From contig JARQTN010000231.1 in the NCBI GenBank assembly GCA_029976695.1, forward strand, positions 1 to 38,097: a stretch of 38,097 nt of DNA, read 5' to 3'. Position 1 is the first letter of the stretch. Each line of letters starts with the position of its first letter. Made by a program: the position numbers and the translations under genes. The DNA is from Lewinellaceae bacterium. GTDB lineage: Bacteria > Bacteroidota > Bacteroidia > Chitinophagales > Saprospiraceae. This document shows, in pieces, positions 15,913 to 38,097 of this stretch. A model generated the notes under the pieces. The model did no database searches, was not told the origin of the DNA, and was given only the letters and a program-made list of their open reading frames with translations.

Positions 15913-18900
15913 CTATTGGGTTGGTTGTGTGGTTGTCACAAATTCCGGTTTCTTGCTTCTTGCATGCCTGATGGCATAGTTCATCCTGTACAGCAGCCAA
16001 TACATTGCCGGGACCACAACGAGGGTGAGGAACGTGGAAAAGACCAGCCCGTAAATCACGGTCCATGCCATCGGGCCCCAGATCGCCGTGTTGTCGCCCC
16101 CTGCAAAGTAATTCGGATCGAGGTCTGAAATCAGGGTGAAGAAATTGATGTTGATCCCCAATGCCAGCGGGATAAGACCTAAAACCGTGGTAATGGCGGT
16201 CAGCAAGACAGGCCTGAGCCTTGTCGCCCCCCCTTTTATAATCGCCTCTTTGATATCACTCTTCTCCATTTCAAATTTATCTTCGATCCCAAGTTCCTTT
16301 CCTTTCCTGCGGATCAGAAGCTCCACGTAATCTACCAGGACAATGGCGTTGTTTACCACGATCCCGGCAAGTGAAACGATCCCGATACCCGTGAAGATCA
16401 CGGAAATATCCCTTCCCGTAAAGACATAGCCAAGCAACACGCCGATCAGGCTGAACAGGACGCTGATCAGGATAATAAAAGGCCCGCTGATGGAATTGAA
16501 CTGGGTCACCAGGATGATGAAGATCAAAAAGATCGCAACACCAAAAGCCGTCGTAAGAAAGCCCATATCTTCCGCTTGTTGTTCCTGTTCGCCCGTAAAC
16601 TCGTAAGTATACCCGCGTGGCAGGTCAAAATCCGGCATGGCTGCCTTGATCTCGGAAACGATCTCGTTTGCATTGTACCCCGGTAGCACATTGGAATAGA
16701 TGGTCAGTACCCGGTCAAGGTTTTTGCGCTTGATGGAACTGTATGTCGATGTATAGCGTACATCTGCAACTGCAGATATCGGGACCTGTACGATCCGCCC
16801 GTTCGCCGGGTTTCGGAACGTCACACGCTGGTTGAGCAGGTCCGTCACATTATACCGGTATACATCCTTGAGCCGCACCTGGATGGGATATTCATCCTCA
16901 CCATCCTTGAATTTGGATACCTCCTTCCCAAAGACTGCGGTACGGATCGCATTCGCAATCGAGTAGGTCGAAAGCTCATACCTGCGTGCTGCCTCCCTGT
17001 CAATTTCGATGAGCAGTTCCGGTTTACCCAGGCTGACATCCGCTTTCAGTTCCTCGATGCCGGCAATATTCAATCCGTTGATAAAATTGACCAAACGTTC
17101 ACCCATGACGGCGAGTGTATCGATACTTTGACCGGAAATCTCAATATTTACGGGCTTCCCTGCAGGCGGTCCGTCCGCATTTTTGTCCACAACGATTTGT
17201 ACACCTGGATACCCATCAAGGGCTTTTCGGATATCCTCCATCGCATCGCGCGATGAAAGATCCCCGCGTTCTTCAGACGGGACAAAAGACACAGTCAACC
17301 TTGCCTTGTGGGGTGTGACGCCAGGTTCGGGCGGACTGTTGGGATCAGAGGTGTTTTCACCGATCTGGGACAATACCGCTTCCACGATCTCTTCATAGGG
17401 TTCCATGGCGCGCATCACTTCCTCCTCCACTTTTTTCATCACGTCATTCGTTGCCTCGATATCCTTTCCGAGGGGGAGATCGACAAAAACGTTGACATAC
17501 AGCGGATCAGCAGCCGGAAAAAATTCAATCTTCGGCATATTGCTCCCCAGCAGGAAGAAAGAGAAAATCAACAGGAGGAAAGTCCCTACAAAGATGAACA
17601 CTGGCGTGAGTTTCCTCAGTGCAGCACGAATGAACCTGTCATAAAAATTCTCCAGGATGACAAGGACCTTGTTCTGGAAATAAAAAGAAGAAGGCCGCAG
17701 GACAAAATAATTCAGGAGCGTGATCAGAGCTGCAAATCCGAGCAGGTTGCGAAACCACTCGATCCCAATGATATGGGACAATGAGGCCACGAGGATCATG
17801 ACAAGGACTCCGGTCAGGATATTCCTTCTTTTTCGTTTCCGCCTGGCAACCTCATCAACCCTTTCATCTACGACCATGAATGACGCCGTGAGCACCGGAT
17901 TGATGACGAGTGCAACAAAAAGCGAGGATGCCAGCACAATGATCAGGGTGATCGGCAGATACTTCATAAACTCTCCCATGATGCCTGGCCAGAATGCAAG
18001 CGGGAGGAATGCGGCAAGCGTGGTGGCTGTAGATGCAATGATCGGCAAGGCCACCTCCCCGGCCCCGTATTTAGCGGCATCCTTTCCACTGTATCCGTTC
18101 TGCATATACCGGAATATATTCTCCACCACAACGATCCCGTTGTCCACCAGGAGCCCGAGTGCAAGAATGAGGGAAAACAGGACCACCATATTCAGGGTCG
18201 TACCGGTCAGGTTCAGGATCAGGATGCCCATCAGCATGGAGAGCGGGATGGCGATCCCGACGAACATGGAATTGCGTATGCCCAGGAAAAACAGGAGGAC
18301 AAGCACAACAAGGATCACCCCCGAAATAATGGAGTTCTCCAGGTTCTGGACGAGCGTCCTTGTGTAGACAGACTGGTCATTGAAAAGGCTGACCTTGAGG
18401 TCATCGGGAAAATAGTTCTGTTCCGCTTCGTTTACGACAACTTTGATCTTGTCCGCTGCATCGAGCAGGTTCTCCCCCTTTCTTTTGATGACATCCAGCG
18501 ACACGACTGGAAACCCGTCACTCCGCGCAATGCTCGTACGCTCCTCCCACCCCATTTCAACATCCGCAATATTCTTCAGGTAAATCGGGCGCTGGTTCTC
18601 GCTTTTCACAATGATCTGCTCGATGTCCCTGACATTATCAAACTGTCCAACGACACGGATTGCCCTGCGGAAATCGTTATTCACGATCTCACCTGCAGAC
18701 ATATTGAGGTTTTCAGAGGCGACCGCATTTTCGATATCCTGGAATGTCACTTGCAGTGATTGCATACTGGGCAGGTCCACATTGATCTTGACCTCCCGCT
18801 CGAGGGCACCCTTGATATCGACTTTGGATACCTCGTCTATATTTTCAATCTCGTCTTCCAGGTACTCGGCAAATTTCCGCAGCTGGTCCATTGGATAATC

Positions 18901-19380
18901 TCCTGAAAGATTGACCGATACAATCGGCACTTCGGAAAGGTTTACCTCGAGCACAAGCGGATCAGAGTCAAGGTCGGTAGGCAGTTCACTTTTCGCCAGG
19001 TCAACGGCATCCTTTACCTTCCTGGTGACCTCCTCCATCTCCATGTCCGGGTTAAATTCAGCAGTGATCACCGAGAAGTCCTGGATGGAGGTGGACCGGA
19101 TATCCTTCACACCCGTGATATCCTGGATCTCTTTCTCGATCGGCCGCGTGATCAGGTTCTCGATATCCTTGGCCGAGTTTCCGAAATAAGGTGTGTTCAC
19201 AAAAACAGTCGGGAAGCTCGCCTCCGGAAACTGTTCTTTCGGCATGTTTTGATAAGAAAGGATCCCGAAAAGCAGGATCATGATGGTCAGGATGAAAATG
19301 CTTGTCGCATTATCTACCGCCCATGTGGTAATCCCGAATTCCCTGAGCCCTTCCCTGAGTTTTTCAATCTTTTGCTTCAT
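15913..19380 (-). CDS. RND family efflux pump permease (AcrB/HAE-like) with two extra membrane helices
   Basis: This 1155-residue inner-membrane proton-driven pump is longer than AcrB (about 1050). It begins with a cytoplasmic amphipathic stretch and TM1 (28-42), then the porter domain with FPEASFPTV. TM4 carries GLLVDNGIVVVENI with Asp413; the second position of the usual DD pair is Asn414. Residues 515-562 hold a basic patch and two additional hydrophobic helices between TM6 and TM7, and an extra loop precedes the last helix (DLDPNYFAGGDN). The C-terminal half repeats the pattern (GIVSLAGIVVNNAIVLVDYVE). It overlaps the adaptor gene by 17 bp and abuts pdxH. Substrate is unknown; drugs, bile-like compounds or metabolites are possible. 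Confidence 0.93.
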   Translation of the reverse strand: MKQKIEKLREGLREFGITTWAVDNATSIFILTIMILLFGILSYQNMPKEQFPEASFPTVFVNTPYFGNSAKDIENLITRPIEKEIQDITGVKDIRSTSIQDFSVITAEFNPDMEMEEVTRKVKDAVDLAKSELPTDLDSDPLVLEVNLSEVPIVSVNLSGDYPMDQLRKFAEYLEDEIENIDEVSKVDIKGALEREVKINVDLPSMQSLQVTFQDIENAVASENLNMSAGEIVNNDFRRAIRVVGQFDNVRDIEQIIVKSENQRPIYLKNIADVEMGWEERTSIARSDGFPVVSLDVIKRKGENLLDAADKIKVVVNEAEQNYFPDDLKVSLFNDQSVYTRTLVQNLENSIISGVILVVLVLLFFLGIRNSMFVGIAIPLSMLMGILILNLTGTTLNMVVLFSLILALGLLVDNGIVVVENIFRYMQNGYSGKDAAKYGAGEVALPIIASTATTLAAFLPLAFWPGIMGEFMKYLPITLIIVLASSLFVALVINPVLTASFMVVDERVDEVARRKRKRRNILTGVLVMILVASLSHIIGIEWFRNLLGFAALITLLNYFVLRPSSFYFQNKVLVILENFYDRFIRAALRKLTPVFIFVGTFLLLIFSFFLLGSNMPKIEFFPAADPLYVNVFVDLPLGKDIEATNDVMKKVEEEVMRAMEPYEEIVEAVLSQIGENTSDPNSPPEPGVTPHKARLTVSFVPSEERGDLSSRDAMEDIRKALDGYPGVQIVVDKNADGPPAGKPVNIEISGQSIDTLAVMGERLVNFINGLNIAGIEELKADVSLGKPELLIEIDREAARRYELSTYSIANAIRTAVFGKEVSKFKDGEDEYPIQVRLKDVYRYNVTDLLNQRVTFRNPANGRIVQVPISAVADVRYTSTYSSIKRKNLDRVLTIYSNVLPGYNANEIVSEIKAAMPDFDLPRGYTYEFTGEQEQQAEDMGFLTTAFGVAIFLIFIILVTQFNSISGPFIILISVLFSLIGVLLGYVFTGRDISVIFTGIGIVSLAGIVVNNAIVLVDYVELLIRRKGKELGIEDKFEMEKSDIKEAIIKGGATRLRPVLLTAITTVLGLIPLALGININFFTLISDLDPNYFAGGDNTAIWGPMAWTVIYGLVFSTFLTLVVVPAMYWLLYRMNYAIRHARSKKPEFVTTTQPTQ

Positions 19381-35246: not shown

Positions 35247-37373
35247 ATGAGTTTCGCAACAAAAAATATCAGGAACATTGTCTTGCTTGGACACTCGGGT
35301 AGCGGGAAAACCACCTTTGCAGAGACGATGTTATTCGAATCAGGTGAGATTTCCCGCCGCGGAACGGTGGAAGCCGGTAATACAGCTTCCGACTATACGC
35401 CAATCGAACATGAGCGTGGGAACTCCATTTTCAGTTCATTGCTCCATGTGAACTGGAGGGGCAACAAGATCAATATCATTGATACACCCGGGCTGGATGA
35501 CTTCGTTGGTGAGATCGTTTCCTCACTAAAAGTTGCCGACACGGCCGTTATGGTCATCAACTCGGTCTCGGGTGTTGAGGTAGGTACAGAATTGATCTGG
35601 GAACACATCAATGACCTGGAGACACCCACAATTTTTGCGATCAACCAACTTGATCACGAAAAAGCGAATTATGACCAGTCACTGGAGCAGTTGCAAAACA
35701 GGTTCGGGCCCAAGGTCATTCCGATCCAGTATCCGCTCAATATCGGGTCAGAATTCAATACCATCGTCGATGCGCTGAGGATGACCATGTATGTTTTTCC
35801 TCCTGAGGGAGGCAAACCGGAAAAAGTGGCCATTCCCGAAAGCGAGATCAACCGGGCACAGGAGATGCACAATATGCTGGTAGAGGCAGCTGCAGAGAAT
35901 GATGAGGAACTCATGGAAAAGTTTTTTGACGAGGGCTCGTTAACCGAAGAAGAACTCGCTCAGGGGCTCACCATTGCCCTCGCGAATCATGAGATCTATC
36001 CCGTATTTTGTGTCTCATCAGTCAATAACATGGGGAGCGGACGCCTGATGGGATTCCTAAATGATATCGCCCCGTCACCAGCAGACAGGCCTCCTGCAAA
36101 ACTGGTCGGGGGAGGATCACTCAAACCGGACAGCGAGGCAAATCCGGTCCTGTTTATTTACAAAACGATATCCGAACCACAGATCGGGAATGTTTCCTAT
36201 TTCAAGGTTTATTCCGGAACCGTCCGGAACGGGGCGGAATTCGTCAATTCGAAAAATGATAATTCAGAACGGATCAACCAGCTTTTCGTGGCCAACGGGA
36301 AGAACCGTGATTCAGTGGATGAACTGGTCGCCGGGGATCTCGGCGTTACGGTCAAGCTGAAAGATTCACATACAAACAATACACTGTATACCAAGGGTGA
36401 TTCAAAAGGGATCGTGCCGATCAAGTTTCCTGAGCCTAAAATGCGTGTTGCAGTCGTGCCGCCAAGCAAGAATGACATGGAAAAATTGACCAAGGCACTC
36501 CATGTCATGCGTGAAGAAGACCCGACACTCATTTTTGAGCAATCCAAGGAGTTGAAACAAATGCTGCTGCATGCGCAGGGCCAGTTGCACCTGGATATCA
36601 CGCGGTACAGGATCGAGCAGGTCTTCGGTGTCAGCATGGAATTCACTGAACCACGCATCCCTTACAGGGAAACGATCACAAAAGTGGCAAATGACAGCTA
36701 CAGGCATAAAAAACAGACCGGAGGAGCCGGCCAGTTTGCCGAAGTCCATATGCGCATTGAACCCTATTATGAAGGCATGCCGGATCCCGCCGGTTTGAGC
36801 GTCCGAAACACTTCCGTCGAGGATCTGCCATGGGGCGGAAATCTCGCCTTCTACTGGTGCATCGTAGGTGGATCCATCGACGCCAAGTTCAGCAATGCCA
36901 TCAAAAAAGGGGTAATGAACAAGATGCAGGAAGGTCCGTTGACCGGATCCTATTGCCGGGATATCAGGGTCTGCATTTATGATGGGAAAATGCACCCGGT
37001 TGACTCTAACGATATGGCATTCCAGCTGGCCGGCCAGATGGTTTTCAAGCATGCCTTTGAACAGGCTGGCCCAAAGCTGATGGAGCCGATCTACGAATTG
37101 TCGATCCTGTGTGATGATGAGGTGATGGGAGATATCATGGGTGATCTCCAGACCCGGAGGGCAATGATCATGGGCATGTCCGCTGAGGGCCATTACCAGA
37201 AGATCACCGCAAAAGTCCCGCTTGCAGAACTGTATAAATATTCTTCAACGCTGAGATCCCTTTCACAGGGCAAAGCGAAATTCAGCAGGAAGTTCATTGA
37301 ATACGCACAGGTGCCGCCGGATATCCAGCAAAAACTGGTACAGGCCCACAAGGAAGAACTGCAGGAAGCTTAG
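35247..37373 (+). CDS. Elongation factor G-like protein (FusA2 type)
   Basis: This 708-residue translational GTPase has the EF-G layout: G domain with P-loop GHSGSGKT (15-22) and DTPG (79-82), then domains II-V, with domain IV segment YRETITKVANDSYRHKKQTGGAGQFAEV and a clear domain V (MGDIMGDLQTRRAMIMGM ... LRSLSQGKAKFS). Two GTPase motifs differ from canonical EF-G: the switch I ERGITI reads ERGNSI, and the guanine-specificity NKxD reads NQLD (133-136). This fits the EF-G-like paralog group rather than the main FusA. Its role is unclear. The ATG is preceded by no Shine-Dalgarno. It is followed by a palindrome and a terminator. Confidence 0.9.
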   Translation: MSFATKNIRNIVLLGHSGSGKTTFAETMLFESGEISRRGTVEAGNTASDYTPIEHERGNSIFSSLLHVNWRGNKINIIDTPGLDDFVGEIVSSLKVADTAVMVINSVSGVEVGTELIWEHINDLETPTIFAINQLDHEKANYDQSLEQLQNRFGPKVIPIQYPLNIGSEFNTIVDALRMTMYVFPPEGGKPEKVAIPESEINRAQEMHNMLVEAAAENDEELMEKFFDEGSLTEEELAQGLTIALANHEIYPVFCVSSVNNMGSGRLMGFLNDIAPSPADRPPAKLVGGGSLKPDSEANPVLFIYKTISEPQIGNVSYFKVYSGTVRNGAEFVNSKNDNSERINQLFVANGKNRDSVDELVAGDLGVTVKLKDSHTNNTLYTKGDSKGIVPIKFPEPKMRVAVVPPSKNDMEKLTKALHVMREEDPTLIFEQSKELKQMLLHAQGQLHLDITRYRIEQVFGVSMEFTEPRIPYRETITKVANDSYRHKKQTGGAGQFAEVHMRIEPYYEGMPDPAGLSVRNTSVEDLPWGGNLAFYWCIVGGSIDAKFSNAIKKGVMNKMQEGPLTGSYCRDIRVCIYDGKMHPVDSNDMAFQLAGQMVFKHAFEQAGPKLMEPIYELSILCDDEVMGDIMGDLQTRRAMIMGMSAEGHYQKITAKVPLAELYKYSSTLRSLSQGKAKFSRKFIEYAQVPPDIQQKLVQAHKEELQEA

Positions 37374-37407: not shown

Positions 37408-37416
37408 CGTATCAAG

Positions 37417-37457
37417 CCCGCTGGCTCATGAGATTGATTATCCCAGCGGGTTTTTTT
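37417..37457 (+). terminator. Rho-independent terminator of the FusA2-type gene
   Basis: CCCGCTGG (37417-37424) pairs perfectly with CCAGCGGG (37443-37450) around an 18-base loop, followed by seven T (37451-37457). It lies 43 bp after the stop codon. Confidence 0.88.
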
Positions 37458-37458
37458 A

Positions 37459-38097
37459 TTGCATCATGCCAGGCAACCCTTGGCCGTGCACTGGCGGGCA
37501 CACCGCATCCCCTACAATCCGGCATTCCGAAACCTGGATGTTTTTCATGGACACAGCCATGAACTTCCGTATGGGATTTTCAGGGCAACTGCCTTCAAGG
37601 TCATCACCATCCACGACCTGATCTTTGAATATTATCCACAGGATTATGCTGCAGAGGACAGGAGGATTTACAAGTCAAAATTCAGGTACGCCTGCCTACT
37701 TGCGGATGCCATCATCGCAATCAGGAACGAGACAAAGGATGATATCATTAAATATTTAGGGATATCCCGGGACAAGATCCGGGTGATCTACCAGAGTTGC
37801 GATCCGCAATTCCATGGCCCGGTAGCTGATGCACAAGTGTGCGAGGTCAGGGAATTGATCCGAGTCCGGCATCTTGAAAATGCCCGCCACTGGATCAGCC
37901 CCGCATTTGATGAATTTCCGGCGATCTACAAAGGGACGCGCCTGTTCATCCTGCCCTCCTATTACGAGGGTTTCGGTATCCCGCTATCAGAGGCGATGAG
38001 CACAGGAACACCCGTGATCACCTCAGATCAGTCAGCCCTGACAGAAGTTGTCGGGGATGCCGGGATCAAAATACCGCCAGACCAGCCAGAGGCAATT
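37459..38097 (+). pseudogene. Decayed family 4 glycosyltransferase (5'-truncated, internal deletion, 3' end outside window)
   Basis: One frame is open from 37438 (after a TGA at 37435) to the window end. It encodes recognisable GT4/GT-B blocks: LDVFHGHSHELPYGI, ITIHDLIFEYYP, KFRYACLLADAII, IRVIYQSCDPQFHG, then FDEFPAIYKGTRLFILPSYYEGFGIPLSEAMSTGTPVITSD. No ATG opens this frame; only TTG (37459) or GTG (37486) are available. The usual ~90-100 N-terminal residues are absent, since the terminator and FusA2 gene lie directly upstream. Between CDPQF and the EFPAIY block the family normally has a ~50-60 residue stretch with a VGTIExRKN motif; only about 30 residues connect the blocks here (junction 37815-37880), without frameshift. 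I read this as a pseudogene; an assembly artefact remains possible. Confidence 0.72.

Follow-up and report, generated by a model that had tools for sequence, protein, structure and literature searches.

A GT4 glycosyltransferase frame with three losses, one of them a scaffold gap, in a draft genome of Lewinellaceae: assembly damage or recent deletion?

Is the glycosyltransferase (GT) frame at the end of this stretch of DNA a gene in early decay, an unusually short enzyme, or a normal gene that was damaged while the genome was being assembled? The window, i.e., the whole stretch that was analysed (38,097 nucleotides), comprises bases 1–38097 of scaffold C231 (97,208 bases), which belongs to a draft assembly (G000) of 263 contigs and 4.12 Mb with a completeness of 97%. 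Three short contigs of this assembly (C1, C3 and C230; L056, L058 and L141) consist entirely of N. The frame at 37459–38097 of the forward strand is identified by Pfam and by alignment as a GT4 glycosyltransferase gene lacking an ATG start. As a member of this family, the product of the whole gene would be expected to pass a sugar from its nucleotide-bound form to a glycan, of the envelope or elsewhere. An in-frame stop at 37435–37437 precedes the frame, which is then open through 38097; as the sequence-only reading had stated, it contains no internal stop. No ATG occurs before the SEAM block, the possible starts being TTG and GTG codons only, and from the first TTG (37459) the open frame runs for 213 codons up to the gap described below. 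The match to the family profile starts at 37441.

The GT4 motifs that were first noticed in the sequence alone are supported by both Pfam and the alignment. The match to Glyco_transf_4 (PF13439) scores 46.9 bits against a cut-off of 28.5 but takes in only the later part of the model, at residues 25–117, while Glyco_trans_1_4 (PF13692) and PF00534 are matched over the spans given in Table 1. Six intact homologs begin at positions 3–43 of PF13439 and at positions 3–34 of PF13692. The EGFGxPxxEA block, which we take to be of the E-x7-E type, is kept as YEGFGIPLSEAMS at residues 169–181 of the window protein. A complete C-terminal Rossmann domain with its RKN region was not found, the VGxxxxRKN block being absent. 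On either side of the losses, the coding frame is otherwise clean.

Table 1. Features at and around the GT frame, in positions of the window.
Feature	Position	Strand	Evidence
fusA2 (EF-G2 of Bacteroidota), intact upstream neighbour	35247..37373	+	NF058620 EFG2_Bacteroid, 1007 bits, positions 4–716 of 717
Intrinsic terminator behind fusA2, hairpin and T7 run	37414..37457	+	fold −20.2 kcal/mol, z −3.6, 0/200 shuffles as good
5′ junction, with GT coding sequence taking over from the T-run about 11–13 codons ahead of the conserved WR	37451..37491	+	spacing against three syntenic relatives
N-terminal GT domain, of which the second half is left, and linker	37459..37845	+	PF13439, positions 72–169 of 170; alignment
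Internal junction	37843..37860	+	alignment with 53 homologs, in which the gap falls between residues 129 and 130
What is left of the C-terminal nucleotide-sugar domain, EGFGIP block included	37846..38097	+	PF13692, positions 48–132 of 142; PF00534, positions 63–147 of 172
Last base before the 100-N scaffold gap	38097..38097	+	L027 2099–2198 all N

The GT frame stands behind fusA2 and its terminator, a hairpin that a pattern scan with a loop limit of 8 did not list. It had been claimed that the 5′ edge lies directly after this terminator; the terminator is present, but the same arrangement precedes an intact GT in three relatives. In these relatives (G034, G032 and G019), a full-length GT lies directly behind fusA2, after a terminator hairpin with z values of −5.6, −5.6 and −4.7, respectively (0/200 shuffles in each case). 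The gene order in G034 is epimerase–fusA2–GT–…–ahcY followed by the same small gene as here, in G019 it is epimerase–fusA2–GT, and in G032 it is fusA2–GT. In the MAG B8_G4 (L036), a full-length GT is located upstream of ahcY, followed by the small gene and by what are presumably an rpoE-like gene and uvrA, these two names having been assigned by eye. When 28 loci of relatives with a close fusA2 match were considered within at most 1.5 kb of flank, several of them being cut by contig ends, a GT match was found in three; that is to say, the fusA2–GT arrangement is shared between relatives, though not widespread. In G017, fusA2 and a GT are convergent and about 3 kb apart. In G016, the search between fusA2 and ahcY (L074 3625–4316) found no GT (best E 0.11, none below 0.1); the two genes are about 690 nt apart there, and the interval holds another small frame, which runs on the opposite strand. 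The GT slot between fusA2 and ahcY therefore varies. Since relatives carry full-length GTs at the same locus, the GT gene of the window, flanked by fusA2 and ahcY, is in its native position, and the proposal that its front was never copied is not supported.

As assembled, the gene shows three losses, of which one is a marked assembly gap. At the N-terminal end, the front is indeed absent, but the loss amounts to about 60–75 codons plus the leader, not to the 90–100 residues first supposed. In homologs, the distance from the D-A/S-K/R motif, found in 51 of 53, to the conserved-W column is 57–77 residues, and in the window only 11 codons separate the TTG at 37459 from the conserved W. The W codon follows the fusA2 stop by 118 nt here; the corresponding spacings in G034 (which has Q, not W, at this column), G032 and G019 are 262, 341 and 348 nt. 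The internal loss agrees with the earlier claim of a missing region of about 50–60 residues around VGTIExRKN: measured against 53 homologs, a median of 54 residues (162 nt) is lost in frame, and this block contains the VGxxxxRKN segment. The distance from QSC to EGFG is 58 residues in the window versus 102–121 in 52 of the 53 aligned homologs, the 53rd (L108) being truncated by its contig end; L039 (Omnitrophota, residues 76–212 only) was excluded from this alignment. The exact position of the internal junction is ambiguous, for the residues EVREL fit on either side and two alignments (A1 and A3) differ. The sequence runs continuously across both junctions. A family-profile search (E ≤ 10) for the missing segments, covering the unmasked contigs of the assembly, returned only paralogs (C36, C78, C157 and C71) and weak hits (C20 and C210).

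The third loss begins one base beyond the window, and the sequence from that base on changes how the GT frame is read. A gap of 100 N occupies positions 38098–38197 of the scaffold, so position 38097 is not the end of the GT gene: the frame resumes past the gap for 36 residues, with a stop at about 38309 of C231, and ahcY (TIGR00936) comes after it. The tail peptide matches the C-terminal end of the homologs weakly (best E 0.001), and measurement on four homologs indicates that the gap hides about 10–11 residues (about 32 nt) of the GT. In 612,334 sampled non-N bases there are 21 gaps, i.e., one per 29 kb, which gives a chance of about 2.6% that a gap falls within a given stretch of about 750 nt. 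All 21 gaps are exactly 100 N long. One of them, on C157, has an exact 55-bp overlap between its two sides that was left unmerged; this single gap suggests a de Bruijn assembly at k=55 in which joining was imperfect. This gap (C157 27106–27205; L046 7106–7205) splits a bifunctional aspartokinase/homoserine dehydrogenase gene, which is probably whole in reality.

Whether a short GT of this form exists as a family was judged from homologs and from structure. The name-based search for close relatives gave five loci, L039 among them, the best segment being 34% identical; no second genome of the same genus appeared in the first homolog search or among the matches listed in the family survey. In that survey, a GT match at E ≤ 1e-22 was found in 136 of 398 genomes of the family. 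The best-hit frame is shorter than 350 aa in six of the 136, namely in the present genome and in five where it lies near a contig start or end (in G305 this position was checked against the length of the contig, in the other four it was judged from the coordinates); genomes outside the alignment were judged on frame length alone. None of the 52 uncut homologs in the alignment has the short architecture. In an AlphaFold model of the intact GT of L036 (pTM 0.80; pLDDT 77.9 on average, though below 50 in parts of the first 92 residues), the lost internal block corresponds to residues 207–260 of the C-terminal domain, with a strand (218–221), a helix (229–239), a second strand (248–251) and a second helix (254–257), and the lost front corresponds to a strand (22–26), a helix (38–51) and a strand (56–61). 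Because these parts are core Rossmann elements, the product as written, judged on the intact model, should neither fold nor bind its donor.

Four explanations were weighed against these results. A functional short GT-B-like protein, starting at TTG or GTG and having a reduced fold, could be argued from the 213-codon open frame with its 36-residue tail and from the retained EGFGIP block; however, the lack of this form among the aligned uncut homologs and the loss of core strands and helices predicted from the L036 model make this alternative, which the sequence-only reading had also offered, very improbable, and a new short GT family was rejected. Equally far-fetched is a partial GT copy pasted behind fusA2 whose front was never copied. 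The 5′ edge at the terminator would suit such an event, but the synteny with G034, G032, G019 and L036 contradicts it, the unmasked contigs of the assembly yielded no near-identical copy more complete than this one, and this candidate was likewise rejected. A genuine young pseudogene deserves serious, if tentative, consideration: the native GT would have suffered two deletions too recently for stops or frameshifts to accumulate. The start and the N-terminal part would have been lost in one deletion ending at the T-run of the terminator, and the in-frame segment of about 162 nt would have been lost separately, perhaps via short repeats, as EVREL fits either side; the scaffold gap would then be a coincidence or the result of strain variation at a decaying locus. 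The continuity of the sequence over both junctions is consistent with this, as are the G016 locus without a GT, by which GT presence varies, and the conserved positions, which are altered more often than in the majority of homologs (in 5 of the 45 columns that count at the 90% level, a share equalled or exceeded by 4 of 52 homologs). Decay would also give such departures. At the 80% level, however, the departure rate is 0.25 in each of the intact GTs of G034, G032 and G019 versus 0.15 in the window, so the raised rate does not mark decay. The pseudogene also requires two separate deletions with no other lesion visible, and a coincidence with the gap at the chance given above. In a more particular version, which is unlikely, the GT would have been lost recently in two steps, with the terminator and a short repeat as deletion ends, and intact and deleted forms would coexist and break the assembly.

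A slight preference is given to the remaining explanation, that a normal GT4 gene was damaged by local assembly failure. A single cause would then account for all three losses: a stretch poorly covered or poorly resolved by short reads, in which contig tips were silently joined at two points and a marked gap was left at the third. Tip joining by short-read assemblers is a possible cause of such losses. The organism itself would carry a normal GT gene of about 375 aa when whole. Assembly loss is favoured by the gap inside the same gene together with its small chance of occurring there, by the one unmerged 55-bp overlap that resembles imperfect joining at k=55, and by the clean frame on both sides, an intact gene being the rule in homologs and syntenic relatives; the failure to find the lost segments elsewhere in the searched assembly is counted on the same side. 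Assembly loss is opposed by what was seen near the sampled gaps. Leaving the GT aside, 28 proteins encoded no more than 1.2 kb from such a gap were surveyed, of which 16 had an informative NCBIfam match as judged from protein span against profile span (the other 12 had none, a partial one or a loosely related model); none of the 16 was short by at least 20 residues, the largest shortfalls being 12 and 9. This lack of silent deletions near gaps counts against assembly loss and for a real deletion. Moreover, joins in a k=55 graph normally have to be spanned by reads, so that 162 nt of unique sequence would not easily be lost silently. Within the window, ten proteins and anmK were scanned, and none of the six with usable models (glmM-like, asd, RND permease, adaptor, epimerase and anmK) was short by at least 20 residues. 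The RND permease gene (15916–19380, reverse strand) matches NF000282 with 1102 residues against 1016 model positions, i.e., about 86 extra. A strain-variable locus could both break the assembly and carry real deletions. In summary, the sequence-only reading of an early-stage pseudogene from two deletions keeps a real share of probability, but the scaffold gap in the same gene makes assembly loss at least as likely.

In line with assembly loss, errors of assembly are reported to lie behind many of the supposed pseudogenes in public bacterial genomes (PMC11017572). The cases there are likewise ones of apparent gene damage in fragmented draft assemblies, as here at a gap; the abstract concerns frameshifts and internal stops, whereas the present frame shows large losses, one of them in frame. 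The lesson is one of caution, for a gene that could pass for an early pseudogene, or for a short enzyme of a new kind, sits at a scaffold gap just past the window end. If the deletions are real, one more glycosyltransferase has been lost in Bacteroidota, which is of local interest.

Among solved structures, the GT4-like enzymes MshA (3c48, 3c4q), BshA, PimA, WaaG and HepE are matched by the intact L036 model with Foldseek E values from 2.9e-18 to about 3e-13, at an identity of only 14–19%, from which donor and acceptor cannot be inferred; the GT remnant itself gives sequence hits to 7qsg, 6kih and 6tvp. The closest known system is the Bacteroidota GT4 group, which has a GT-B fold, PF13439 combined with PF00534 or PF13692, and an N-terminus of the type DAKR…TGLGNYSR, and to homologs of which the GT frame is at most 50% identical over the N-terminal block. 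Unlike this group, the frame in the window lacks the N-terminal strand–helix–strand and the VGxxxxRKN block of about 54 residues, and it is interrupted by a gap; like this group, it has the EGFGIP block and its place behind fusA2 and before ahcY.
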